A stretch of DNA of 64,000 nt from Candidatus Zixiibacteriota bacterium (lineage in GTDB: Bacteria; Zixibacteria; MSB-5A5; DG-27), in NCBI GenBank assembly GCA_030605835.1, contig JAUWHO010000035.1, positions 1-64,000 on the forward strand, in the 5' to 3' direction. The translations under genes and the position numbers were made by a program. Shown here in pieces: positions 1-53,192 of the stretch. How positions within the stretch are numbered: position 1 is the stretch's first letter; the number at the start of each line of letters is the position of its first letter. The notes under the pieces are model-generated. The model was not told the origin of the DNA and searched no databases. It was given only the letters and a program-made list of their open reading frames with translations.

Positions 1-587
1 AACGGCGCCTCGAGGCTATCCAGTTTTTCTAAAAGCCAGTCCAGGGAGGTTGGTCCACCCCTTACAGCTTTTGTCACCCAATCTTCTGTGGAGAGGTTTT
101 CATCGTCAACGCCGTCGCTTTCCATATACAATGTGAATAAACTCAGCATACCCGAAAGCGGATCGGCTTCCTTTGAATTATAGTCATCCCAATCTATATC
201 AACCGCCGCCCCATAATTTTTCAGCAACCAGCGGGCCATCTGGATGCCGTAAGAGTAATGGATCGTTGTATCAACGATGCCGGAATCATCTATCCGGTTG
301 TCATCGGGTCCGTTCTTTTCCCTGAAGTGCTTAATTCTTTTGGCGAAGTTGGCCAGCTCACCATCCACGAGTTTCAAGAGCCGGGGGTTATCGGGATAAG
401 CCTGCATGAAGCAGAGCGTATCGTGATATTTCAGAAGCAACACTGGATTTCTGATTCTTTTCTGTGCCAGCGCTCTGATGATAGCGGCCTTTTCCCTTGA
501 GTCTGCCGGAGAAAATGCGAACTTAAGACCCGCTAACGATTCTATCAGGTCCTTCGTCTTTGTGGCTGCCGATGATTTAGCTACCAT
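1..587 (-). CDS. hypothetical protein, N-terminal part (runs off the window)
   Basis: An uninterrupted reading frame of 195 codons starts at an ATG at 587-585 and is still open at base 1, so only the N-terminal part is seen. An AGAGGTG Shine-Dalgarno lies just upstream (about 594-600). The protein begins MVAKSSAATKTKDLIESLAG, is acidic and soluble-looking, with many Asp/Glu and Trp residues and no signal peptide or membrane segment. I do not recognise the family. It lies downstream of the attC-like site at 893-954 in the same orientation as the restriction-modification gene, so it may be cargo of the next cassette or the first flanking chromosomal gene. Codon use looks ordinary. Confidence 0.6.
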   Translation of the reverse strand, partial: MVAKSSAATKTKDLIESLAGLKFAFSPADSREKAAIIRALAQKRIRNPVLLLKYHDTLCFMQAYPDNPRLLKLVDGELANFAKRIKHFREKNGPDDNRIDDSGIVDTTIHYSYGIQMARWLLKNYGAAVDIDWDDYNSKEADPLSGMLSLFTLYMESDGVDDENLSTEDWVTKAVRGGPTSLDWLLEKLDSLEAP

Positions 588-689
588 TTTGGCACCTCTA
601 CAATCATAGAGTAAACAATATAATGCTAGTAGACGATTTAATTCAACTTTGTAATGATGGGCCTGAACCAATCACCGCCAGTTACAGTG

Positions 690-742
690 GTGTCGGGAGT
701 TTCCTCCCGACACTTGCCGTCAGGAGGCAATTCCTGACGGCA
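690..742. repeat. two adjacent perfect hairpins (REP-like)
   Basis: Two palindromes stand side by side: GTGTCGGGAG (690-699) pairs with CTCCCGACAC (704-713) over a 4-base loop, and TGCCGTCAGG (715-724) pairs with CCTGACGGCA (733-742) over an 8-base loop. No clear U-tract follows on either strand, so a simple terminator role is doubtful. The design, two short GC-rich hairpins in an intergenic gap, resembles REP elements and is echoed by unrelated hairpins elsewhere in this window. Confidence 0.7.
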
Positions 743-892
743 CTTATAGGGGCCGGCACCGATCGGCTTGCTATACCTTCATGAAATATGAAAGACGGCC
801 AGGTTTAATCCTCCTGCCCGCCTTCTCTTTCAGCTTGTCTGACGATGCTCGCTTAAGCCCCCGTAAGCGATTTTCTTTTAGTCTAATTAGCA

Positions 893-954
893 GTCTAACA
901 ATCAGCTAACAGGGCAGCGGTTTTTGCTCGTCTTGGTGGAGCGCGTTGTTGGGC
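893..954 (-). other. attC-like integron recombination site 1
   Basis: Read on the minus strand the site starts with an R'' box GCCCAAC (954-948, matches RYYYAAC), has a 5-base spacer, then L'' GCTCCAC, and ends with L' GTTAGC, a 5-base spacer TGATT and an R' box GTTAGAC (899-893, matches GTTRRRY). The restriction-modification stop codon (956-958) lies directly before it, the position an attC takes in a gene cassette. The L'/L'' pairing is imperfect (GCT/AGC and AC/GT only), so this copy may be partly decayed. The bases after R' (TGCTAATTA) are the same as after site 2. Confidence 0.5.
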
Positions 955-955
955 A

Positions 956-3900
956 TTATTTTATTTTAGTTAATGCATTAGTTATCTCTTCCAATTTCTT
1001 CTCTCGACTCAAAGCGTCTTTAGTGAAGTTTTTGAGGTCCTTAGGAACTGTAAGACCACAATCATTCAGCTTATCGATATCGAGATTATTAATGTTTTGC
1101 CCTCTGAGCCCAGCAACAAACCCCCGAAACTTTTTCGAAAGGAGTCTGTAAAATACTGCTTTTGCAAGGTATTTGTCGCGGAATCTAAAAATTCCGAGGA
1201 AGCCACCTACGGCATAGTTATCTAGATTTCTGTCTACCCAAATCACCTTACCTAAATGTTTTAGACTTCCGCTGGCATTTGAGATAATGATGTCCCCTGC
1301 GCGTGGCTGCAACTCCTTTGGGATCGTAAATTCGTTTCTTAGGTATAACAGTTTTTTACGCAAGTCAGTACGCGCTGTGTCGAGTGATAGGTTGCTTGCT
1401 GTAATGACACGTTTCTCTGTCTGGTAAGGCACTTCTGCTTCTCGTTTACCGTAAACCAATCCTGTCGTGTAAAACAGATCGCCACTTTCTCTCAATTCTG
1501 ATAAGGAAATGTCCATTTGTTCGTAGTCGTCGATAAAGTCACCCAAGGGTGAATTTGATTGCACAGAAAGATGACGAGAAGAAAAGAACTTGGATGGATT
1601 ATCCATCACGAGATTCTCTCGTTTCCTAATTGTATCCAAAAGAGGAACTCGTTTAAGATTCAAGGCGATTGAATCGTCGATTTCTAGTTCTCTTCCAAGA
1701 AACGCATTTCGAATATAGTAATCCAATTTACCTGCATCCTCTTCGCCACTGGAATCAAATAGTCTTGTTGCAATCTTACCGGAATCTGTTTTGAGAATCT
1801 CAATGCCTTCTTGGCCCCTCGACTTTGAGAACCTATATCCCAAAAACTCTTCTTGGTCTTTCTTTTCTCCCGAGTATCCTAGCAGTACATTTCTGTTATG
1901 ATCCATTATTTGAAGAAGAATTGCATAAGTTAACTCACCTAACTTGAGTAATGCATTCGCAGAAAACTCTGATATCATAACATCAAGTGCCGAAGAGTCA
2001 TCTGCAATTGATTTCAGAATTTGCTCGATCGGTACTTGTGTCTTTGAACCAATGTCTTCAAGATTCTTTCTTTCATTTGTTTTATTCAGATTCTTGGCCT
2101 TCTTTAGAGTATGGGTGATTGCACCTATATTTCGCTTCCGTGCAAACAGCGCGGTTGTTGTGGTATTAGTTGGCTTGAAAGTTTTATCGCGCAACTCTAC
2201 CACTGCGATAAGTTCAAAGCAGAAAAACAGTATTCTACGAGCACTAGTGTAAACACCGCTTTCATTATTCAAAATGCTCAGAGGCATGAAGAGGCCCATG
2301 TATCCATTGTCCTTTAAAAGTTGGAAAGCGCGTTCCAAAAAAAAGCATTCGATTTCGGAACTCTTGGAAGATACCTTTTTAGTTAGCGCAAAATCTTGTT
2401 CCCCATTTGTTAAATCCTTCTTAAAGCCGGAAATCGAAAATGGTGGATTAGAAACGAGTATGTCAAAGAGGCCTAATACTGGGCCCGGCTCTTCTTTCTT
2501 CAATAGTCCATGGAACCGGGTCTCTTTCTGAAAAGACCCCAGTCCATCAGAGTTTACGATCACGGCATCACCGTCTCCGTTCAAGAAAAGCGCAATCTTT
2601 GTGGTTTTTGCAAGGCGATAGTCTTTCTCTATGCCATAAACGTAATCTTTGGCCCAATAGAAATTATCTCTTATTGCTATAAAGTGTTTTTGAGCACGTC
2701 CCACCAAGCGCCTGTAATCTACTGATTTTATAACCTCCTCAATTTCATCTATGGATTCAGTTAGAAAGTGCCCAGCTCCGCAAGCAAAATCAATCACAGT
2801 CGGAATGATCTCCTGTGCTTTCCTGTTTATCGCCTCTTCAAAGAACTGCCTAACTGGAATGGAACGGATAAAAAACCTTGCAAGAGGTGTAGGTGTAAAA
2901 AACTGGCCTGCTCCTTGTTTAATTCCAGAGTTTAATAAGTCCTCAAAAAAATCACCAAGGAACTGGTGTTTTTGCGTGTATTTAATTTGATACCTTTGCA
3001 GTAGTTCTACAATCTCTCGAACAAGTGCAAAGTTATCAATGTAAGATTCCTTATTGTAAATATCTATAAAAGCGAATTCTGAGCAAGGGGAAAAATACTC
3101 TTCTTCGACAGAAAGCCCCAGGTAATCCTGAATTCCACGCTGATAAAGATGTGAAAGTCTCTTAATTAGGGCCTCATAATCATCATTTGGTTTCCATTGA
3201 AAATCTAGTATATCATTGAGATTGTGTGTATCCTCATCATAAATTTTGCAGACGAATAGGTTAAATATCTTATTGAATGCATTAGATTTATCTGAAATGG
3301 CATGTCGTCTAAGAATCTCAGCAAAGCTATGAAAAAGCCCTTTGCCGCTGTTTTCATCAAGTTCCTTAAGGTCTGATTTTTTAAGTTCAACACGTTGAAT
3401 GCTATAAGGGGATGCCTCTACCTCAAAGATTCCGCCAGTTATAAATGTCTTGTTCCAAGATTTGTGCAATTCTTCAATGTTGCTACCTTTGACGTCAGCC
3501 AGATCGATGGACTCAGATTGGTGCTCGATGTGCTCTAGAACTGAAGAGGTATAAAGAATAAGAAACTTAGTAGACCGCTCTTGTACAAGATAGCTAAAAA
3601 GTTGTCCGCCGTCTTCTAGGATATTGTTACGCTCTTTCTCATATTCTTCACCCCATGTTTTGCATTCAAGCATTGCGAAGATATCTCGGTTTTTATCCTT
3701 GATGAGGATGTCAAGACGGCCGCTTGTTCGGTGCCCAGATTTCCATGTTCTTTCCAGTTCAAGGGATTTAGGCCTATACCCTTTTCGCAGGAGCCTGATT
3801 ACGCACTCAAGAACAACCAAATTTTCATCTTGTGCTAAATTTGAGGTCGTCTTTCGCCAAACCTTAATCTTAGACCCGTAATCGATTTTCGATTTCTTTG

Positions 3901-4006
3901 GTTCTTCCGAATTGTATATGACAGAAATCTTGTACCCATTGATTTCGGAAACAAGAAAGCCACTGTTCTCCTCTGAAAAACCGATTTTTGTGAGCCTGTC
4001 TTTCAT
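956..4006 (-). CDS. single-chain restriction-modification enzyme (type IIG-like, nuclease-methylase-specificity fusion)
   Basis: About 1016 residues with three parts in one chain. Near the N-terminus is a PD-(D/E)XK nuclease of the HsdR-N kind (Asp99, then ECK at Glu114/Lys116). In the middle is an N6-adenine methylase with SAM motif DFACGAGHF near residue 400 and catalytic NPPF near residue 520. The last 200 residues (GDIIISN, RGQNINN) look like a type I HsdS-style target recognition domain. It should both cut and methylate one DNA site. I chose the ATG at 4006 because GAGG lies 6 bases before it; an in-frame ATG at 4018 has no such site. The gene is AT-rich compared with the rest of the window and ends at an attC-like site, which suggests acquisition by transfer. 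No separate subunit genes are present. Confidence 0.85.
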   Translation of the reverse strand: MKDRLTKIGFSEENSGFLVSEINGYKISVIYNSEEPKKSKIDYGSKIKVWRKTTSNLAQDENLVVLECVIRLLRKGYRPKSLELERTWKSGHRTSGRLDILIKDKNRDIFAMLECKTWGEEYEKERNNILEDGGQLFSYLVQERSTKFLILYTSSVLEHIEHQSESIDLADVKGSNIEELHKSWNKTFITGGIFEVEASPYSIQRVELKKSDLKELDENSGKGLFHSFAEILRRHAISDKSNAFNKIFNLFVCKIYDEDTHNLNDILDFQWKPNDDYEALIKRLSHLYQRGIQDYLGLSVEEEYFSPCSEFAFIDIYNKESYIDNFALVREIVELLQRYQIKYTQKHQFLGDFFEDLLNSGIKQGAGQFFTPTPLARFFIRSIPVRQFFEEAINRKAQEIIPTVIDFACGAGHFLTESIDEIEEVIKSVDYRRLVGRAQKHFIAIRDNFYWAKDYVYGIEKDYRLAKTTKIALFLNGDGDAVIVNSDGLGSFQKETRFHGLLKKEEPGPVLGLFDILVSNPPFSISGFKKDLTNGEQDFALTKKVSSKSSEIECFFLERAFQLLKDNGYMGLFMPLSILNNESGVYTSARRILFFCFELIAVVELRDKTFKPTNTTTTALFARKRNIGAITHTLKKAKNLNKTNERKNLEDIGSKTQVPIEQILKSIADDSSALDVMISEFSANALLKLGELTYAILLQIMDHNRNVLLGYSGEKKDQEEFLGYRFSKSRGQEGIEILKTDSGKIATRLFDSSGEEDAGKLDYYIRNAFLGRELEIDDSIALNLKRVPLLDTIRKRENLVMDNPSKFFSSRHLSVQSNSPLGDFIDDYEQMDISLSELRESGDLFYTTGLVYGKREAEVPYQTEKRVITASNLSLDTARTDLRKKLLYLRNEFTIPKELQPRAGDIIISNASGSLKHLGKVIWVDRNLDNYAVGGFLGIFRFRDKYLAKAVFYRLLSKKFRGFVAGLRGQNINNLDIDKLNDCGLTVPKDLKNFTKDALSREKKLEEITNALTKIK

Positions 4007-4236
4007 GAATAGCCTCATTCTAGTCTATGCGCTTGTTGTCCGTAAAGTTATTTCCTCTGCGCAACAATGATCATTTTGCTGCATATAACTTGATGGATCC
4101 AAGGACTTTGAATATGAGACCCCTACTGACCACGACAGGAGCAACACGCAAGCCATGGATTGTCAATGGCTTGGGCCCCAATCTTGCATCTCACCCGAGG
4201 TCTTATATGGATAAGCGTAACACACCCTCTTTCACG

Positions 4237-4374
4237 TCACAGGGACCCCATCAGACTCTTGACGCCCTTGCCGCCGCGGTTCAGATGCTTCGGTTTACTC
4301 CAGACAACCGATGAAGAGCACGAAGGCCTTCGATCCACTCTCGGAACAGATATGACGCCACCACTCTCCTGCAT
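4237..4374 (-). CDS. possible 45-residue protein in direct repeat copy 1
   Basis: Short frame opening MQESGGVISVPRVDRR, with GGAG six bases before its ATG and a sigma-70-like promoter 29 bases further up. The same frame is intact in the second repeat copy (5723-5881), with 11 codon changes in the shared 40 codons and no indel. Substitutions are not clearly biased to third positions, so protein selection is not shown. The product is basic and Ser-rich (SKPKHLNRGG), with no domain I recognise. It may be a leader ORF rather than a functional gene. Confidence 0.25.
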   Translation of the reverse strand: MQESGGVISVPRVDRRPSCSSSVVWSKPKHLNRGGKGVKSLMGSL

Positions 4375-4456
4375 GTATTTCTCCGGCTTTCGATGTATTT
4401 TACATATAGTATCTCTCTGACAAAAAGTCAAGAAAACCTCATCTTTTCAAGCCATT
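4254..4456. repeat. 203-bp direct repeat, copy 1
   Basis: This stretch matches 5761-5964 at roughly four of five positions with only a single-base length difference. The two copies lie about 1.5 kb apart in direct orientation and enclose the methyltransferase gene and two attC-like sites. On the minus strand each holds a promoter, a ribosome binding site and a short ORF. Similarity starts abruptly at GACTCTT and stops at AAGCCAT. Confidence 0.8.
4403..4431 (-). promoter_or_regulatory. sigma-70-like promoter in repeat copy 1
   Basis: On the minus strand TTGACT (4431-4426) and TATATG (4408-4403) are separated by exactly 17 bases. The equivalent boxes in repeat copy 2 keep the same spacing. It would read through the short ORF toward the restriction-modification gene, whose start is about 390 bases downstream. 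Confidence 0.5.
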
Positions 4457-4572
4457 CCCAAAAGTGCCTCTTGACTTCTGGCTCCAATGGTCCAACATCC
4501 TCTGAGGACATACACATAATATCCCTTAGGACTAATGTCCTGGTCAGCATTATTATTTCAGTTTAATTAGCA

Positions 4573-4645
4573 GTCTAACACTTAAAGCTCACCTGCCGCT
4601 ATGAGGCATAGCGAAATTGCGGTCACGTGGAGCGCCTGGTCAGGC
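4573..4645 (-). other. attC-like integron recombination site 2
   Basis: This is the best of the three sites. Minus strand: R'' GCCTGAC (4645-4639), 5-base spacer, L'' GCTCCAC, a central palindrome (CGCTATG / CATAGCG around CCT), L' GTGAGC, 7-base spacer, R' GTTAGAC (4579-4573). L'' pairs with L' except for one extrahelical C, the feature that orients attC recombination. The stop codon of the methyltransferase (TGA, 4642-4640) lies inside R''. Length is 73 bases, within the usual attC range. Confidence 0.65.
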
Positions 4646-5383
4646 TTTTTCTAAAATTGCTATTATATTGTTTCTGAGCCATCTCATCGGTTTTGTCATC
4701 AGGAGCCGTATCCAGAGAAGTTCCAAAATGACAATAGGTGGAATGATAACAAATTGCGCTGAAGAGCATATCATCCTTATTTTTTTAACTCGGAAGCCAC
4801 ACTGTTCTGATAGCTTTTCTATCTCTGACCTGGAATTGATTTTATAGAATGCAGGAAATACATCTTCTTCTTTGCGGCTTTGCAATAAAAATATGAGCTT
4901 ATCTTTTATTCGTTCAGGAATGAGCCTTGCCATGACAGTAACATAGCTTAGTTTATTTGGAGTGTGAAAAATCAACTTACCTCCGGGTTTCAATATTCTA
5001 TGAATTTCTTTCAATTGGATTTCTGGCCTGTTCAGATGTTCTAATACCATGTTGGAGGTTATCAAATCAAAAGAATTGTCAGAAAATGGTAGATTTGATA
5101 TATCACCCCTTATCTTATTTTCAATTGTTCTATGTTTTGTTAATGAATGGAAATCATAATCCAATCCCACAATTGTTTTGCATTTTTTTACTAATATTTT
5201 TTCTTCATCATATCGCCATGGAGGCAGCAGTTGATGCCCACAACCTAAATCCAGCCATATATAGTTGGTTTGACAATTATCTGCTAAAATCTCTTCATAG
5301 ATATATTGTGAATATTTAAGCTTTGGGGCGATTATTGATTGGGATTTCCAGTAAATTTTATACAATACATCTCGGTTAATCAT
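4640..5383 (-). CDS. class I SAM-dependent methyltransferase
   Basis: A 247-residue methyltransferase of the Methyltransf_11 type. The SAM-binding glycine loop is WLDLGCGHQ, followed by GLDYD at the end of strand 2, NLPFSDNSFDLI and the motif post-III ILKPGGKLIFHTPN. The C-terminus has a hydrophobic stretch (FVIIPPIVILELLW) that may touch membrane. The substrate is unknown; relatives act on quinones, sugars or lipids. I chose the ATG at 5383 because GGAG stands 5 bases before it; an in-frame ATG at 5410 lies inside the attC-like R' box region and has no such site. The gene sits between attC-like sites 3 and 2, so gene plus site 2 would form a cassette of about 0.83 kb. AT-rich like the restriction-modification gene. 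Confidence 0.75.
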   Translation of the reverse strand: MINRDVLYKIYWKSQSIIAPKLKYSQYIYEEILADNCQTNYIWLDLGCGHQLLPPWRYDEEKILVKKCKTIVGLDYDFHSLTKHRTIENKIRGDISNLPFSDNSFDLITSNMVLEHLNRPEIQLKEIHRILKPGGKLIFHTPNKLSYVTVMARLIPERIKDKLIFLLQSRKEEDVFPAFYKINSRSEIEKLSEQCGFRVKKIRMICSSAQFVIIPPIVILELLWIRLLMTKPMRWLRNNIIAILEKA

Positions 5384-5401
5384 GCTTTCTCCATAAAAAA
5401 A

Positions 5402-5482
5402 GCCTAACATTCTGCATGACCGGCTTTGGAAAGACGTGGGAAGCGCGGCTTTTCAAAGGACATGTCGATGCACTGGTTGGCA
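5402..5482 (-). other. attC-like integron recombination site 3
   Basis: Minus strand: R'' TGCCAAC (5482-5476, close to RYYYAAC), 5-base spacer, L'' CATCGAC, a long imperfect stem (CTTTGAAAAG / CTTTCCAAAG), L' GTCATG, 6-base spacer and R' GTTAGGC (5408-5402). L'' pairs with L' as three bases, an extrahelical C, three bases, the same geometry as site 2. Its R' box lies 19 bases before the methyltransferase start. Confidence 0.5.
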
Positions 5483-5655
5483 CTTTCTGGATCGGTGCTG
5501 ATGTGCTTCAACGTATGCACGAAGGACAGCGTTGATTCGGGCCTGATAACCCCAATACCCACGTTGGCCAATCCAGAATCACGGCCGCCTTGTATCACTG
5601 GAGTTGTGTCTTGGATATGTATTCCTGACCCGCGCCTCGAGCACCTCCTTTCCAT
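5404..5655 (-). CDS. possible cassette-encoded hypothetical protein
   Basis: An 83-codon frame starting MERRCSRRGSG and ending GHAEC with its TAG inside the R' box of attC-like site 3. Its last 26 or so residues are encoded by the recombination site itself, as is common for small integron cassette ORFs. The middle part (DTTPVIQGGRDSGLANVGIG) has no family that I recognise. No strong ribosome binding site is apparent before the first ATG. It could equally be non-coding. Confidence 0.3.
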   Translation of the reverse strand: MERRCSRRGSGIHIQDTTPVIQGGRDSGLANVGIGVIRPESTLSFVHTLKHISTDPESANQCIDMSFEKPRFPRLSKAGHAEC

Positions 5656-5722
5656 CTATTCGCAACGAGAGACCGGGAAGGTGTTCCTTCAGTGTAGTTG
5701 CTACGATTCACTCCCGTCTTTG

Positions 5723-5881
5723 CTATAATGTCTGGCGCAGCCCCACAAGGGCGTTCGGCGGACTCTTGAGGCCCTTCCCGCCGCGGTTCAGATGCTTCGG
5801 TTTACTACAGACAACTGATGAAGACCGCGAAGACCTTCGATCCAATCTCGGAACACATATGATGCCGCCACTCTGCTGCAT
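5723..5881 (-). CDS. possible 52-residue protein in direct repeat copy 2
   Basis: Counterpart of the short frame in repeat copy 1, beginning MQQSGGIICVPRLDRR after a GGAG six bases upstream. Frame and start are kept while the C-terminal tail past the repeat boundary differs (PPNALVGLRQTL). Function unknown. Its preservation in both copies is the only support. Confidence 0.25.
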   Translation of the reverse strand: MQQSGGIICVPRLDRRSSRSSSVVCSKPKHLNRGGKGLKSPPNALVGLRQTL

Positions 5882-5964
5882 GAATTTCTCCGGCTTTTCA
5901 GCCTATTTCACATATAATATATCCCTGATAGAAAACCAAGAAAACCCCATCTTTTCAAGCCATC
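5761..5964. repeat. 203-bp direct repeat, copy 2
   Basis: Second copy of the repeat at 4254-4456, same orientation. It lies upstream (in minus-strand sense) of the small ORF at 5404-5655 and marks the right edge of the AT-rich cassette block. Confidence 0.8.
5911..5939 (-). promoter_or_regulatory. sigma-70-like promoter in repeat copy 2
   Basis: TTGGTT (5939-5934) and TATATG (5916-5911) on the minus strand with a 17-base spacer, the same spacing as in repeat copy 1. Weaker -35 match than copy 1. Confidence 0.4.
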
Positions 5965-6022
5965 CTATGCCAACCCTTGAGTGCGGTGGAGAAAATGCCT
6001 GTGGATATCTTAATGGGGGAAT

Positions 6023-6109
6023 GCTTCTAGAATCTCCTTCGGTCTCTATTTCTACAAGCTCAGCGCTGGGGATTACTCCGAGTCCAACGAGAGGGACCCA
6101 AATGATTAG
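6023..6109 (+). pseudogene. remnant of a type IX-like C-terminal sorting domain
   Basis: The frame reads ASRISFGLYFYKLSAGDY followed by SESN and a garbled end before TAG. This closely matches the last third of the sorting domain on intact secreted proteins in this window (SSGVYFYRLTAGECTFTRK). There is no upstream frame, no start, and the usual basic final residues are lost by a frameshift. It is the tail of a decayed secreted-protein gene. Confidence 0.6.
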
Positions 6110-6293
6110 ACTCCCGTTATCAGCGCAATAACATATTAACCAACTGCCTGGCAGTTAGCTCTTGCTCAAGCACCGCTCTCTCCGAAGGCCTGGGGCCCGC
6201 CTGTTGTAAAGGAGCTCCCTCTCCGACCTTAGTGGCCGATTTCTCGCGGGCGATGCCGTCTCCAGCTCCTGTCGGAGGGAAACTCAAATAAGC

Positions 6294-6321
6294 TTGACCT
6301 CGTATGTAATTATGCTACCTT
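6294..6321 (+). promoter_or_regulatory. candidate promoter of the FHA-GAF-SpoIIE gene
   Basis: TTGACC (6294-6299), 16-base spacer and an extended -10, TGC followed by TACCTT (6316-6321). It would give a leader of about 40 bases before the ATG at 6366. It is also the reason for not starting the protein at 6294. Confidence 0.35.
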
Positions 6322-6365
6322 TTGATCGGCGGCGAGCCGGATCTAAAGCTTCACGAGGAACCGGT

Positions 6366-8012
6366 ATGATTGAATTGTTCAGTCCCTCAGCCAGAAAGCG
6401 TTACAATTGGGAGCTTTCAGAGGGGAGATATATACTTGGAAGAAGTCCGCAATCGGATTTGGTCATAGACGACAGTACGGTATCCCGGAGACATGCCCAG
6501 ATCGATATCGTCGATCCGCAGGGCATCATTTTGACTGATCTTGGCAGTCACAACGGAACGACCGTCAATGGTCACAGAGTCACGGCGCCCGCCGAGGTGC
6601 GGCTTGGTGACATCCTTACTTTCGGGAGAGTAGACCTCAAGATTGCCTCAACGGAACCCACCTCGGTGCCGGCTGGTTCAGTCGAGGTCGCTGACTTCGG
6701 CGAGGATTTGAGGAATGCCAGGATCCTACCCATAGAGGAGGCACTGCAACCCCTTCCAGCCGAGATCACTCGTGATCCCAGGGTCTTTAAGGCCTTTTCC
6801 GAGATGGGCAGGATGCTAATTCTGCCGGGGCCGGAGGAAGAAATGCTGGGTAAGGGCCTGAAACTACTCCAAGGGATCATCCCGGTGGAACGTGCCGCCA
6901 TTTTTCTGACCCGAGACCTGGAAGATGATGTTTCCCTCTCGGCCTGTTGTGTAGCAGGCGAGGCGAGTTCAGATTCATTCACTATCTCCAGGACCATCCT
7001 CGACGAGCTACTTGGACAGCAGAACGCCATCCTGATTGCTGACACCCAAACCGACACCAAATTTGCAGAGCAGAAGTCGATTGTGGAGTCAAGAATCAGA
7101 TCGGCGATGGCGGTGCCGTTGTACGATGAGGGAAAAGTCTTCGGCGTCTTGTATGCAGATACTACAAATCCCCTTCATCATTTCACCGAGGACTACCTCC
7201 GGATAACTGCGGCCTTTGGAAATATCCTGGCGGCAAAGATGGTCAATTGTAATCTCTTGAAGGAACGGCAGGCAAAGGAGGTCCTGGAGTCCGAATTGGC
7301 GGCGGCCTCTCAGATTCAGGAAAGGCTTCTGCCCAAGGAACTTCCCCACCTGGAGAGGTACAGCTTGAGTGCCTTCCAGATTCAAAGCAAACAGGTCGGA
7401 GGAGACCTCTACGATGTTGTCAGATTGAAGGATGGAAGGATCGTCTTTCTTCTGGCCGATGTTTCCGGCAAGGGGATGGGAGCAGCGCTTTTGGCTTCGA
7501 ATATTTTGGCCTCTTTCCGGGTGCTATACGGGGCAGAAGATTTTAGTCTCTTAGAGGCCACCGATCGTGTCTCCAGCCAGCTTTTGAGATCTACCCGCCC
7601 GGAGGATTTTGCCACCCTTTTCCTCGGGGTACTCTGTCCCCAGACTAACACCCTTCGATACCTCAACGCCGGCCACAATCCTCCCCTGCTGGTGCGGAAA
7701 GATGGTAGGGTGGAACATCTGGAGGCTTCCGGCATCCCCGTGGGGGCCTTCGATCTTGCCGAGTGGAGGGAGGAGACTTTGGAGCTCGGGGTCGGGGATT
7801 TTCTATTCGCATTCACCGACGGTATTCCCGAGGCGATGAATGCAAGGGAAGAGGAATTCGGTGACGAGAGCCTGGAGAGGGTGGTTCTGACCTGTCGGGA
7901 TCAGTCGCCCGAGGAGTTGACTGAATCGGTAATGCAGGAGGTCAAGAGGTTCATCGGAGAGGTTTCTCCCAGCGACGATACCACCTTACTGGTTCTGCGC
8001 CGAGAACAATAG
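6366..8012 (+). CDS. FHA-GAF-SpoIIE family protein serine/threonine phosphatase
   Basis: A 548-residue cytosolic signalling protein. An FHA domain (residues about 5-95; GRSPQSDL, SRRHAQ, LGSHNGT) binds phosphothreonine. A GAF domain follows (about 155-315), and the C-terminal 200 residues form a PP2C/SpoIIE phosphatase with the metal-binding acidic motifs ADVSGKG, TDGIPEA and DDTTLL. It should dephosphorylate a partner, perhaps an anti-sigma antagonist, in response to a GAF ligand. I chose the ATG at 6366 since GAGG lies 7 bases before it and the upstream codons are not FHA-like. A Ser/Thr kinase gene follows 96 bases later on the same strand, so kinase and FHA-phosphatase probably work on one pathway. 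Confidence 0.88.
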   Translation: MIELFSPSARKRYNWELSEGRYILGRSPQSDLVIDDSTVSRRHAQIDIVDPQGIILTDLGSHNGTTVNGHRVTAPAEVRLGDILTFGRVDLKIASTEPTSVPAGSVEVADFGEDLRNARILPIEEALQPLPAEITRDPRVFKAFSEMGRMLILPGPEEEMLGKGLKLLQGIIPVERAAIFLTRDLEDDVSLSACCVAGEASSDSFTISRTILDELLGQQNAILIADTQTDTKFAEQKSIVESRIRSAMAVPLYDEGKVFGVLYADTTNPLHHFTEDYLRITAAFGNILAAKMVNCNLLKERQAKEVLESELAAASQIQERLLPKELPHLERYSLSAFQIQSKQVGGDLYDVVRLKDGRIVFLLADVSGKGMGAALLASNILASFRVLYGAEDFSLLEATDRVSSQLLRSTRPEDFATLFLGVLCPQTNTLRYLNAGHNPPLLVRKDGRVEHLEASGIPVGAFDLAEWREETLELGVGDFLFAFTDGIPEAMNAREEEFGDESLERVVLTCRDQSPEELTESVMQEVKRFIGEVSPSDDTTLLVLRREQ

Positions 8013-48752: not shown

Positions 48753-50540
48753 TCAGAGGATCTTTATATCCTTTGTCCTCAGTTGCAGTCTGAGTGTATC
48801 GTTCCAGTAGTTCCTTTCGACCACGTAAGCCATGTCGATATAGGCCGGCGCTCTCCCCCAGGCAGAGCCACCCTTGGCGGACATGTTCATCCAGCGGAGA
48901 TAGTCGCCCAGGCCGAAGCCGATGCAATCGAAGATCTCCCCATCCTTTCTCACCTTGAACTTGAGGTGGTTGTTGCCGACGATATACGGTTGTCCCACCA
49001 CCTCCAGTCCCCGGGACAGGAAAACCGGGCGCATGTTCTGAGGGCCAAAGGGGGCAAATCTCTCCAGGCTGTCGACTACCTTTTCATCTATCTGAAATAG
49101 GTCCGCCTCGACGTCGATCTGAAGCTTGGGGAGGAGGTCCTTAGAGCTCAACGCCTTCTCGGAGACCCTCTTTAACCTCTCCCGAAAGTCGTTAATCTTG
49201 TCGGCAGCGATAGACAGCCCGGCGGCGTATTTGTGGCCTCCGTAACGGATCAGATCCCCCTCGCACTCCTTCAGGGCATCGTATAGATGGAAGCCGGGGA
49301 TGCTCCGGGCAGAGCCCTTGCCCTCCTTCCCCTCCACCGCGATCAACACCGTCGGGCGGTGATATCTCTCCACGATGCGGGAGGCCACGATTCCGATCAC
49401 TCCCTGATGCCAGCCGGAAGCCGCTAAGACGATGGCCTTATCACACTCTAAATCAACGCTCTCCTCGATCTGCTCTAAGGCCTCTTCTAAGGTCTGCGCA
49501 TCGATGCTCTTGCGTCGGCGATTTTCCTGATTCAGGACTCTGGCGATGGCGGAGGCCTGCTCTTCGTTTTTGGTGGTCAGAAGTCTGATCGCCTTTTCGG
49601 CGTTTCCTAACCTCCCGACGGCGTTTATCCTCGGGGCTAACATGAATACGATCTGCCCGGTGCCGATGGGGCGTCCTAAAAGCCCGGAGATAAATATGAG
49701 GGCTTTGAGTCCCGGCTTGGAGGTTCTGGCCAGTTGATTCATCCCGAACTTGGTCACAACCCGATTCTCACCTCTGAGGGGAACGATGTCTGCCACCGTC
49801 CCCAGGGCCACCAAGTCCAAATGCTCCTCCAGCTCGGAGCCGTCCTGCCCCAGCCTCTGGTGAAGTGCCTGAGAGAGCTTGAAGGCGATCCCCACCCCGG
49901 CCAGCTCGCCTACCGGAACGTTGGAACTCCCCTCTGCGGAGACGGACCCTTCGGCTTTGGGATTGAGTATCGCTAAGGCCTCCGGAAGGGTGTCCGCAGG
50001 CTCGTGGTGGTCGGTAATGATGCAGTCGATCCCCAACTGCTTGGCGTAATCGACCTCCTCCCGGGCGGTGATTCCGCAATCCACGGAGATCAAAAGCCTC
50101 ACCCCGCGGCTTTTCGCCTCCTCGATCCCCTCCCTGGAGAAACCGTAACCCTCCGTCAGGCGGTTGGGGAGATAGTAGCTGACCTCCGCTCCCAACTTAT
50201 TTAAGACCAGAAAAACAAGAGAGGTGGCGGTGATGCCGTCGACATCGTAGTCGCCGTAGATCATGATCTTCTCTTGATTCTTCAGGGCTTCGACGATGCG
50301 ATCGACCGCCTTGGACATGTCTCTGAAGATGTAAGGGTCGGAGAGATGGGACAGATCCGGATTGAGAAAAACATCCACTTCCTGAAGATCGACCAGACCC
50401 CGGTTGACCAGGATTTTTGCCACCACCTCCGGAATCTGGAAGTTCTCGGCTAAAAGCTGGACTGCATCAGGCTCCGGCTCCGGAGCCTGCACCCAAGAGA
50501 GCCCACCTTCTCTGAAGTAACCTTTGCCCGATTTCGCCAT
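48753..50540 (-). CDS. recJ: single-stranded-DNA-specific exonuclease RecJ
   Basis: A 595-residue DHH-family 5'-3' exonuclease of recombination and mismatch repair. Motif I is IYGDYDVDGITATSLV, motif II VDCGI, motif III TDHHEPAD and motif IV near GTVADIV; the DHHA1 part contains YGGHKYAAGLSI. The C-terminal OB-like domain follows. Length is typical. It lies upstream of meaB in the same direction, 64 bases away. Confidence 0.93.
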   Translation of the reverse strand: MAKSGKGYFREGGLSWVQAPEPEPDAVQLLAENFQIPEVVAKILVNRGLVDLQEVDVFLNPDLSHLSDPYIFRDMSKAVDRIVEALKNQEKIMIYGDYDVDGITATSLVFLVLNKLGAEVSYYLPNRLTEGYGFSREGIEEAKSRGVRLLISVDCGITAREEVDYAKQLGIDCIITDHHEPADTLPEALAILNPKAEGSVSAEGSSNVPVGELAGVGIAFKLSQALHQRLGQDGSELEEHLDLVALGTVADIVPLRGENRVVTKFGMNQLARTSKPGLKALIFISGLLGRPIGTGQIVFMLAPRINAVGRLGNAEKAIRLLTTKNEEQASAIARVLNQENRRRKSIDAQTLEEALEQIEESVDLECDKAIVLAASGWHQGVIGIVASRIVERYHRPTVLIAVEGKEGKGSARSIPGFHLYDALKECEGDLIRYGGHKYAAGLSIAADKINDFRERLKRVSEKALSSKDLLPKLQIDVEADLFQIDEKVVDSLERFAPFGPQNMRPVFLSRGLEVVGQPYIVGNNHLKFKVRKDGEIFDCIGFGLGDYLRWMNMSAKGGSAWGRAPAYIDMAYVVERNYWNDTLRLQLRTKDIKIL

Positions 50541-50560
50541 AACAGAATAGAATCGGAAAC

Positions 50561-50921
50561 GCAGCAGACCGTAAGCCGGGTTCTGTGTCTGGCGACCATC
50601 TATCTGGGCCCGGAGTCACCTTCGGGCTCAAGCGGCCTACCCAGGAGTAAAAAGCGAGGCGGGCTACCTCTTCTCCTCTATTTGGCCTTGCTTTCGGGTG
50701 GGGTTTGCCGTGCCTCCGAAGTCACCTCCGGAGCGGTGGTCTCTTACACCACCTTTTCACCTTCGCTCGCGGGAGTATTGCAACCTCCACGGGCTGTATG
50801 TTTTCTGTGGCACTCTCCGTCGGATCACTCCGCCCTGAAGTTATCAGGCACCCTGCCCTGGAAAGCCCGGACTTTCCTCCCCCCGTCAGAGCTGACGGGA
50901 GGCGATCGCCTGGCCTGCTGC
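50561..50921 (-). ncRNA. rnpB: RNase P RNA (bacterial type A)
   Basis: On the minus strand the 5' part has GAGGAAAGTCCGGGC and the 3' part has ACAGAACCCGGCTTACGGTC, the universal P4 and end signatures. The P1 stem is GCAGCAGGCC (50921-50912) with GGTCTGCTGC (50570-50561). Internal GAGAGTGCCACAGAAAACA and AAGGTGAAA also match. It is the catalytic RNA that matures tRNA 5' ends. Ends are set by P1 and may be off by a few bases. Confidence 0.93.
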
Positions 50922-51014
50922 ATCTCCTCTTTTAATAATACCCAAAAGGAGCCCCACTGTCAAGGGATAGTTTTCGTAATTTGATGTCCTCCTGAAAGTT
51001 ATCCCAACAGAAAC

Positions 51015-52478
51015 TTAACGGTTCACCCGGTAGTTGGGGGCCTCTTTGGTGATGGTGACACCGTGGGGATGGCTCTCTCGCCAGCCCGCACCGGTTATCC
51101 GCAGGAACTTGGCCTCCCTTCTCAGGTCGGCGAGGTTCTTGGCCCCACAGATCCCCATTCCGGATCTGAGCCCCCCGATCAATTGAAATATCGACTCCGA
51201 GAGGGGTCCTCTGTAGGGGACTCGCCCCTCCACCCCCTCCGGGACCAGTTTATCCGGTTCCTTGCTCTCTTGATGGTAGCGGTCCCCGGAGCCAACCTTC
51301 AGAGCCTCCACCGAGCCCATACCTCGGTACACCTTGAAGGTTCTTCCCTCGAAGAGAACCGTCTCCCCGGGAGATTCCTGGGTGCCAGCGAAAAGTCCCC
51401 CGATCATAACCACCTCGGCACCGGCAGCCAAGGCCTTGGTGATATCTCCGGAATATCTGATGCCTCCGTCGGCGATGAGAGGCCTGTCATGTTCAGCACA
51501 TACGGAAGCACAGTCCATGATCGCGGTCAACTGCGGCACCCCCACCCCGGCGATGACCCGAGTGGTACAGATTGAGCCCGGTCCCACTCCCACCTTGACG
51601 CTGTCGGCTCCGGCCTCGATGAGAGCCCGGGCACCCCGGGGGGTAGCAACGTTGCCCGATATCAGCTCGGTGTTGGGGAATTTCTCCTTCAGCTTCGTGG
51701 TCGCTTGCAGCACCCCCTGGGAATGCCCGTGCGATACGTCCACCACCAGAAGGTCAACCCCGGCCTGGACCAGAGCAGAGGCCCGGTCGATGTAATCCTC
51801 ACCCACCCCCACCGCGGCTCCCACCAACAGCCTCCCCCTACTATCCTTGGCGGCATCCGGATATTGAATCTTTTTCATTATGTCTTTGACGGTGATCATC
51901 CCTTTGAGATTCATCTCTACGTCCACCACCAGGAGCTTCTCGATCCGATGGCGGTGCAAAAGCCCCTTGGCCTCCTCCAGGGTTATGCCCTCGGAGGCGG
52001 TGATGAGCTCATCCTTGGTCATGATCTGGGCAATCCGCTGATCCAAGTTCTCCACGAAGCGAAGGTCACGGTTGGTGAGAATTCCAACCAACTTCCCCCG
52101 GGAGGTGATGGGGATGCCGGAGATCGAGAACCTTTTCATATACTCTAAAGCTTTGGAGATCTTCTGCTCCGGCGGCAGGGTGATGGGGTCCACGATCATC
52201 CCCGATTCCGAGCGCTTCACCTTCTCCACCTCCAGCGCTTGAGCATCCAGAGGCAGATTGCGATGGATCACTCCCAGGCCACCCGCCCGGGCAATCGCGA
52301 TTGCCAGCTCCGACTCCGTGACGGTATCCATGGCGGCCGAGATGATGGGGAGGTTCAAGCCGATCTTGGGGGTCAGTCTGGTTTTGATCTCTGTCTCTCT
52401 TGGTAAAACCTCGGAATAGGAGGGAACCAGGAGGACATCGTCGAAGGTCAAGGCCTCCTTTTCAATTGTCGGGGACAT
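51015..52478 (-). CDS. guaB: inosine-5'-monophosphate dehydrogenase
   Basis: A 487-residue enzyme for the NAD-dependent step from IMP to XMP in guanine nucleotide synthesis. The barrel carries the catalytic Cys loop [19 protein letters not shown]; two CBS domains are inserted at about 95-205 ([39 protein letters not shown]). The C-terminus has the mobile flap (YRGMGSVEA) and GRVPYRGPL. Its ATG directly follows the TAG of the zinc-ribbon gene, so the two are coupled. Confidence 0.95.
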
Positions 52479-53192
52479 CTATTGTTCCTCCTCTGACCAG
52501 ACTAAGATCCGCCCGCAGTTATCGCAGGCATAGATACGGTCCCCCTTTTTCATCTCCTGAATTCTCTGGGGAGGCACCTGTTTGAAGCAGCCTCCGCAGG
52601 AACGCTTCTTGATCATAACCACCGCAGCCCCCCTCTTTCCCCTCCGCACCCGCTCGTAGGTCGACATCACCCTTCTGGAGACGTGGGAGGCGACATTCTG
52701 CCTCTGGGTCTGTCGGGATTTGATCTTGTCCTCGATGGAGTCCAACTCCTTTCGCAGCCCCACCAGCTGGGAGAGGTGCGATTTCTCCATCCCCCCACAC
52801 TTCTCCTGGACCTCCTTTAGTTGCTCGCCGGTGACCTCCTGCTGCTCCAAGACCTGAATCAACGCCTCTTCGTTCTCAGAGATCTTCTCCTTGACGTGGC
52901 TTATCTGCGCGGTTAGGGCGTCGTATTCCTTGTTGGTCTTTATCTCGCGCATCCTCTTTCTGCTTCTCTGGAGCTCCTCCTGATTGACGTCGATTTCCAG
53001 CTCCAAACGTTTCTTCTCCCTCTCCAGGGAAACCAGGCCCTGCTCGAGATCCTCCACCTCCTGCTTACATCCGGAGACTTCCCTCTCTAAGTTGTCGATC
53101 ATATCCGGCAGATAGACCTTGGAACTTTCCAACTCCGCAAGCTGCTCATCGATCTCCTGAAGTTCTAAGAGGAGTTTCAAATCTCTCTGCAT
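52479..53192 (-). CDS. coiled-coil zinc-ribbon protein (CdsZ/zf-RING_7-like)
   Basis: 237 residues. Residues 1-175 form a long antiparallel coiled coil rich in Glu, Lys and Leu (MQRDLKLLLELQEIDEQLAE). The C-terminus has a C4 zinc ribbon: SCGGCFKQVPPQ then YACDNCGRIL. This is the widespread family earlier known as YbgI-neighbour or HP0958-like; the Helicobacter member binds RNA polymerase sigma-54 and flaA mRNA. Its role here is unproven. It shares a stop-start junction with guaB. Confidence 0.82.
   Translation of the reverse strand: MQRDLKLLLELQEIDEQLAELESSKVYLPDMIDNLEREVSGCKQEVEDLEQGLVSLEREKKRLELEIDVNQEELQRSRKRMREIKTNKEYDALTAQISHVKEKISENEEALIQVLEQQEVTGEQLKEVQEKCGGMEKSHLSQLVGLRKELDSIEDKIKSRQTQRQNVASHVSRRVMSTYERVRRGKRGAAVVMIKKRSCGGCFKQVPPQRIQEMKKGDRIYACDNCGRILVWSEEEQ

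Follow-up and report, generated by a model that had tools for sequence, protein, structure and literature searches.

A small chromosomal array of integron cassettes without an integrase very probably (about 0.92 in our estimate) occupies the low-GC block near the start of the window, i.e. the whole 64,000-nucleotide stretch of a Candidatus Zixiibacteriota genome that was analysed. Such clusters of attC sites lacking an integron integrase are known as CALINs (IntegronFinder 2.0, PMC9024848; PMC8618304; PMC9668308). As in the CALINs described previously (PMC9024848, PMC8618304), at least two attC sites less than 4 kb apart share one orientation, no integrase gene lies nearby, and the cassettes are few: the array comprises three attC sites in about 5.2 kb. 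An earlier reading made from the sequence only had proposed a CALIN-type array, and this is strengthened by the spacing of the three sites (all less than 4 kb apart), the lack of IntI in the genome, the presence of a second array and the existence of related attC sites in the phylum. The same reading had equated the array with an AT-rich block at 1 to 5.97 kb. Its low GC content holds (41% in the island versus 53%), whereas bases 1-893 turned out to be flank containing the start of a backbone gene, so that the island is trimmed to about 893-6090 (Table 1).

CALINs as such are well known, and the window array is a small CALIN in a little-studied phylum. The CALINs and integrons reported from archaeal MAGs are likewise patchy in little-studied MAGs and mostly CALINs (PMC9668308), whereas the host here is bacterial. 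The new detail is a leader repeat that opens both arrays of the genome and also sits in the restriction-modification (R-M) cassette.

Table 1. Features of the window array, its flanks and the second array on contig C32
Feature	Position	Strand	Remarks
Left flank, N-terminal part of conserved backbone gene (~590 aa)	3..671	-	homologues in 20/133 phylum genomes
attC site 1	893..954	-	weakest; 5/6 L pairs, poor central stem
R-M cassette	899..4578	-	3680 bp; limits set by the G/TT crossover expected in site 2 and in site 1
Type IIG R-M gene, 1020 aa	956..4018	-	PADLOC REase_MTase_IIG, E 6.5e-161; Pfam N6_Mtase, 1.3e-17
Leader repeat copy B	4254..4455		in R-M cassette, upstream of gene; 87% identity to copy A
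attC site 2	4573..4645	-	strongest; covariance model R2, 20.6 bits
Methyltransferase cassette	4579..5407	-	829 bp; R' positions in sites 3 and 2
Class I SAM methyltransferase gene	4640..5410	-	Pfam Methyltransf_11, 9.2e-20
attC site 3	5402..5482	-	log-odds score 24.7; bottom-strand fold z -3.1
83-aa ORF across site 3	5404..5655	-	no family match; coding status doubtful
Leader repeat copy A	5761..6072		5' end of window array; 82% identical to C32 copy over 302 bp
Decayed C-terminal sorting-tail relic	6018..6092	+	adjoins leader; matches ends of tail-bearing C32 genes
Right flank, FHA-GAF-SpoIIE gene	6294..8012	+	GC 54%; treated as backbone
Second array (C32)	50508-52927 (L047 9508-11927)		no integrase; two attC, TIR-domain genes of 145, 127 and 281 aa, leader repeat
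C32 attC sites	51571-51500 and 50637-50508	-	behind two small TIR genes and the 281-aa TIR gene
Leader repeat copy C	C32 52626-52927		5' end of C32 array

Anatomy of the sites and content of the cassettes

The three attC-like sites that had been placed on one strand were recovered at the same coordinates, all with attC geometry and on the minus strand, separated by gaps of 3.6 kb and 0.76 kb. Each consists of an R'' (RYYYAAC) and an R' (GTTRRRY) box around L''/L' arms with an extrahelical base in L'', with departures in the R'' boxes of sites 2 and 3 and one mismatch in the arms of site 1. The L arms comprise three bases, an extrahelical C and three bases, and the R''-L'' spacer is always 5 nt, as in 16/16 of the attC sites used for training. 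Site 1 (GCCCAAC-AACGC-GCT[C]CAC ... GTTAGC-TGATT-GTTAGAC) forms 5/6 L pairs, with a single C:T mismatch. Site 2 (GCCTGAC-CAGGC-GCT[C]CAC ... GTGAGC-TTTAAGT-GTTAGAC) and site 3 (TGCCAAC-CAGTG-CAT[C]GAC ... GTCATG-CAGAAT-GTTAGGC) form 6/6 each, which bears out the pairing of 3 + C + 3 bases claimed earlier for these two sites. The R'' box of site 2 is one position off RYYYAAC; that of site 3 is off consensus and pairs imperfectly with R'. Stop codons lie in or next to all three sites, as had been noticed, and genes end at two of them: the R-M stop adjoins site 1 (TAATGCCCAAC) and the methyltransferase TGA falls within the site 2 R'' box (GCCTGAC). The small ORF of doubtful coding status extends across site 3 as far as a stop in the R' box.

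The extrahelical bases are read by IntI when it binds the bottom strand in its folded form, and the sites best excised by IntI1 have a second extrahelical base six nucleotides past the first, giving T-N6-G on that strand (PMC3053210). Site 2 has C-N6-A at this place and the C32 sites both have G-N6-A; the second position is G in site 1 and T in site 3. When folded as single-stranded DNA and compared with shuffles, the bottom strand has z-scores of -3.1 for site 3, -3.4 for a C32 site, -1.3 for site 2 and -0.06 for site 1, whose stability is thus not above that of shuffled sequence; the minimum-energy fold of site 2 leaves the R boxes unpaired. Sites 2 and 3 are firmly assigned as attC-type sites. 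Site 1 is a probable attC, chiefly from its position, its orientation and its left half (GCCCAACAACGCGCTCCACC), identical at 18/20 positions to an attC left half in a genome of the same genus (G006).

Read on the minus strand, the order is leader repeat, a gene-less or decayed first cassette, site 3, methyltransferase, site 2, a copy of the leader repeat, type IIG R-M gene, site 1 and backbone. The repeated cassette starts are spaced 3680 bp apart, equal to the length of the R-M cassette. Two features count against a cassette reading: the R-M cassette is large (3.7 kb) and starts with 560 bp of untranslated sequence, and the first cassette lacks a convincing gene. In the proposed scenario, the genes would each have arrived as a circular cassette through an IntI that worked in trans or was lost later, two of the routes put forward for CALIN formation (PMC8618304). 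Recombination would have occurred on the folded bottom strand (the plus strand of the window), with the crossover in GTTRRRY after the G and before the TT. At present the cassettes are probably fixed; excision and shuffling could occur should an IntI enter the cell.

The R-M protein has the predicted attributes of a type IIG enzyme, a single chain combining nuclease, N6-adenine methylase and target-recognition regions, with a weak type I specificity match at residues 850-992. A search with a cut-off of E 1e-50 gave no homolog in any of the remaining 132 genomes of the phylum. A relative with 78% amino acid and 75.5% nucleotide identity is present in a Ca. Poribacteria MAG (L029 107-3154), where the likeness is limited to the ORF, the flanks differ and a strict scan found no attC. 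To judge from this identity, the gene appears to have been exchanged between phyla. The cassette methyltransferase is a class I enzyme of generic type, whose start more likely lies at about 5382, after GGAG. Together with the TIR-domain proteins of C32, the R-M gene suggests that both arrays carry predicted phage-defence cargo, in the case of the R-M gene with a 78% identical relative in another phylum.

The leader repeat and the second array

The second array lies on C32 in an island of 36-43% GC, and its site at 50508-50637 was recognized only by reading the region. The proteins encoded beside it have Por_Secre_tail or FlgD_ig tails, compatible with the earlier description of the host as 'FCB-like' and no test of FCB affiliation. 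The leader repeat is 200-300 bp long, occurs in three copies in the genome and was not detected in the other 132 phylum genomes; copies A and C pass into a sorting-tail gene relic. In this respect the two arrays differ from known CALINs (PMC9024848, PMC8618304), since both open with the same leader and a fragment of it is also found inside a cassette. Copy B resembles the leader piece inside a downstream cassette in the Delta-attI-type cassettes of mobile integrons (PMC12901181), a resemblance only; the leader copies here lack a conserved GTTRRRY core.

The recurrence of a leader followed by a sorting-tail relic at the 5' end of both arrays is what would be expected if the attC sites were real and leader plus array had been copied or moved as one segment, rather than assembled cassette by cassette at this locus. 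Such block movement is an unlikely alternative: the block yielded no transposase gene, the leader is not flanked by terminal inverted repeats, the two arrays contain different cassettes, and the Poribacteria R-M homolog is alike in the ORF only and not in its flanks. The leader itself could represent the duplicated edge of a locus, a fragment that is mobile, or a platform resembling attI. Among candidate identities, a known RNA was rejected with nothing above the gathering score, a MITE because terminal inverted repeats are lacking, and attI because no GTTRRRY is conserved among the copies. We give little credence to a more specific proposal, in which the leader would be a common insertion platform, attI-like or promoter-bearing, used to build arrays with an outside integrase and carried into the R-M cassette.

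Edges of the array and search for an integrase

Assembly-by-cassette without a resident integrase also has to be distinguished from a complete integron that was cut in two during assembly, with the integrase lying past the contig start. The contig end is only 893 bp from site 1, and draft genomes are known to inflate CALIN counts (PMC9024848). However, a conserved backbone gene separates site 1 from that end. The start of the window contig and that of contig C50 of the same genome (1-145 in each) share a 145-bp overlap within a single gene (94.5% identity), which points to an assembly break caused by strain variation, and the left-flank gene probably continues on C50, as judged from this overlap. 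The array would then end at site 1, with the contig break inside the backbone. Moreover, an integron carries its integrase on the attI side, opposite to this contig end, and what follows there is the 6294-8012 gene and 58 kb of higher-GC DNA. The genome search for intI that had been recommended was negative, an IntI profile run against the whole genome (96% complete) matching only XerC and XerD. A complete integron is marked by an intI gene with an adjacent attI; no intI was recovered here, and an attI is not recognizable in its absence. With backbone genes at both edges of the array, a contig-split integron is very improbable.

Two further observations concern the left edge. Between site 1 and the backbone gene, positions 689-775 form a double-hairpin element with a weak match to IMES-4 (26.6 bits versus a gathering score of 48). 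In two genomes of the phylum (G115 and G116; L094 7838-8485 and L095 10584-11081), the homolog of the left-flank gene has as its neighbour a methyltransferase with about 33% identity to that of the cassette, which could be a coincidence.

Model support and relatives in the phylum

A log-odds scorer trained only on 16 attC sites of class 1 and Thiodictyon arrays that have an integrase ranks site 2 first in the 64-kb window (26.0), site 3 second (24.7) and site 1 fourth (22.1), all inside the leave-one-out range of known attC sites (21-32). Scores of at least 22 are rare in simulated sequence and in 174 kb of same-phylum DNA. From the latter, 0.015 matches scoring at least 22.1 are expected per strand per 5.1 kb, so that the Poisson chance of three such sites on one strand in 5.1 kb is about 5e-7. 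Among the covariance models, R1 limited the central stem to 8 nt, had no room for long sites and recovered none of the sites; it was replaced by R2, trained on known sites only with a 32-nt centre and hence independent of the window. R2 recovered the array of the integrase-bearing Kovacikia plasmid used as positive control. A covariance search had been suggested for bases 1-6300 and the flanking contig; in the window, R2 detects site 2 (20.6 bits, E 0.0027), sites 1 and 3 being within its noise. For these two, detection comes solely from the log-odds scorer and from model R3, which included them in its training and finds them by construction. Elsewhere in the genome, R2 matches C32:51500-51571 (29.2 bits). 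Having a covariance match in the window and a second array on C32, the genome shows the opposite of what had been named as refutation, i.e. no match to any site and no similar sites elsewhere. The first pass of the genome-wide model search scored part of the candidates, and weak attC sites elsewhere were possibly missed. A match at C32:66803-66870, with a comparable covariance score, was rejected as attC, as it lies inside a coding gene and has no R boxes.

Chance hairpins with attC-like boxes in an ordinary defence island are a very improbable explanation, for although site 1 by itself could be accidental and the C32 coding stretch reaches a comparable score, three collinear sites share one spacer and lie at gene ends (~5e-7), site 2 has full-length relatives in five other genomes of the phylum, and the genome holds a second array.

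When applied to the phylum, R3 gave 37 attC-like matches in 21 of the 133 genomes (own genome included), against an expectation of about 1.3 at the per-genome threshold of E 0.01; nine of the matches are in G111. The log-odds scorer backs sites in G006, G111, G005, G102, G103, G002, G015 and G108, many with scores of 20-29. Only G108 has an IntI above the cut-off (L028 15953-17067, G108:C318), as frames of 144 and 227 aa at a contig end. With attC-like sites in 21/133 genomes and an integrase above the cut-off in one, arrays outnumber recognizable integrases in the phylum where these integron cassettes are now placed, a tendency rather than a measurement because many of its genomes are incomplete. 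The expectation that more sites in the genome would end in GTTAGAC-TGCTAATTA failed: there are only two copies, both in the window array, and matches in relatives with 2 mismatches allowed are at control level, so that the extension is not a genome-wide motif. The site 2 family pattern has no exact match in viral contigs. Within the phylum, site 2 aligns over its whole length, at 67-78% identity, with the attC family GCGCTGCACCTGACCGC...GCGGCAGGTGAGC of G111, G005, G102, G103 and G002, in which the extrahelical L'' base is G, whereas it is C in site 2.
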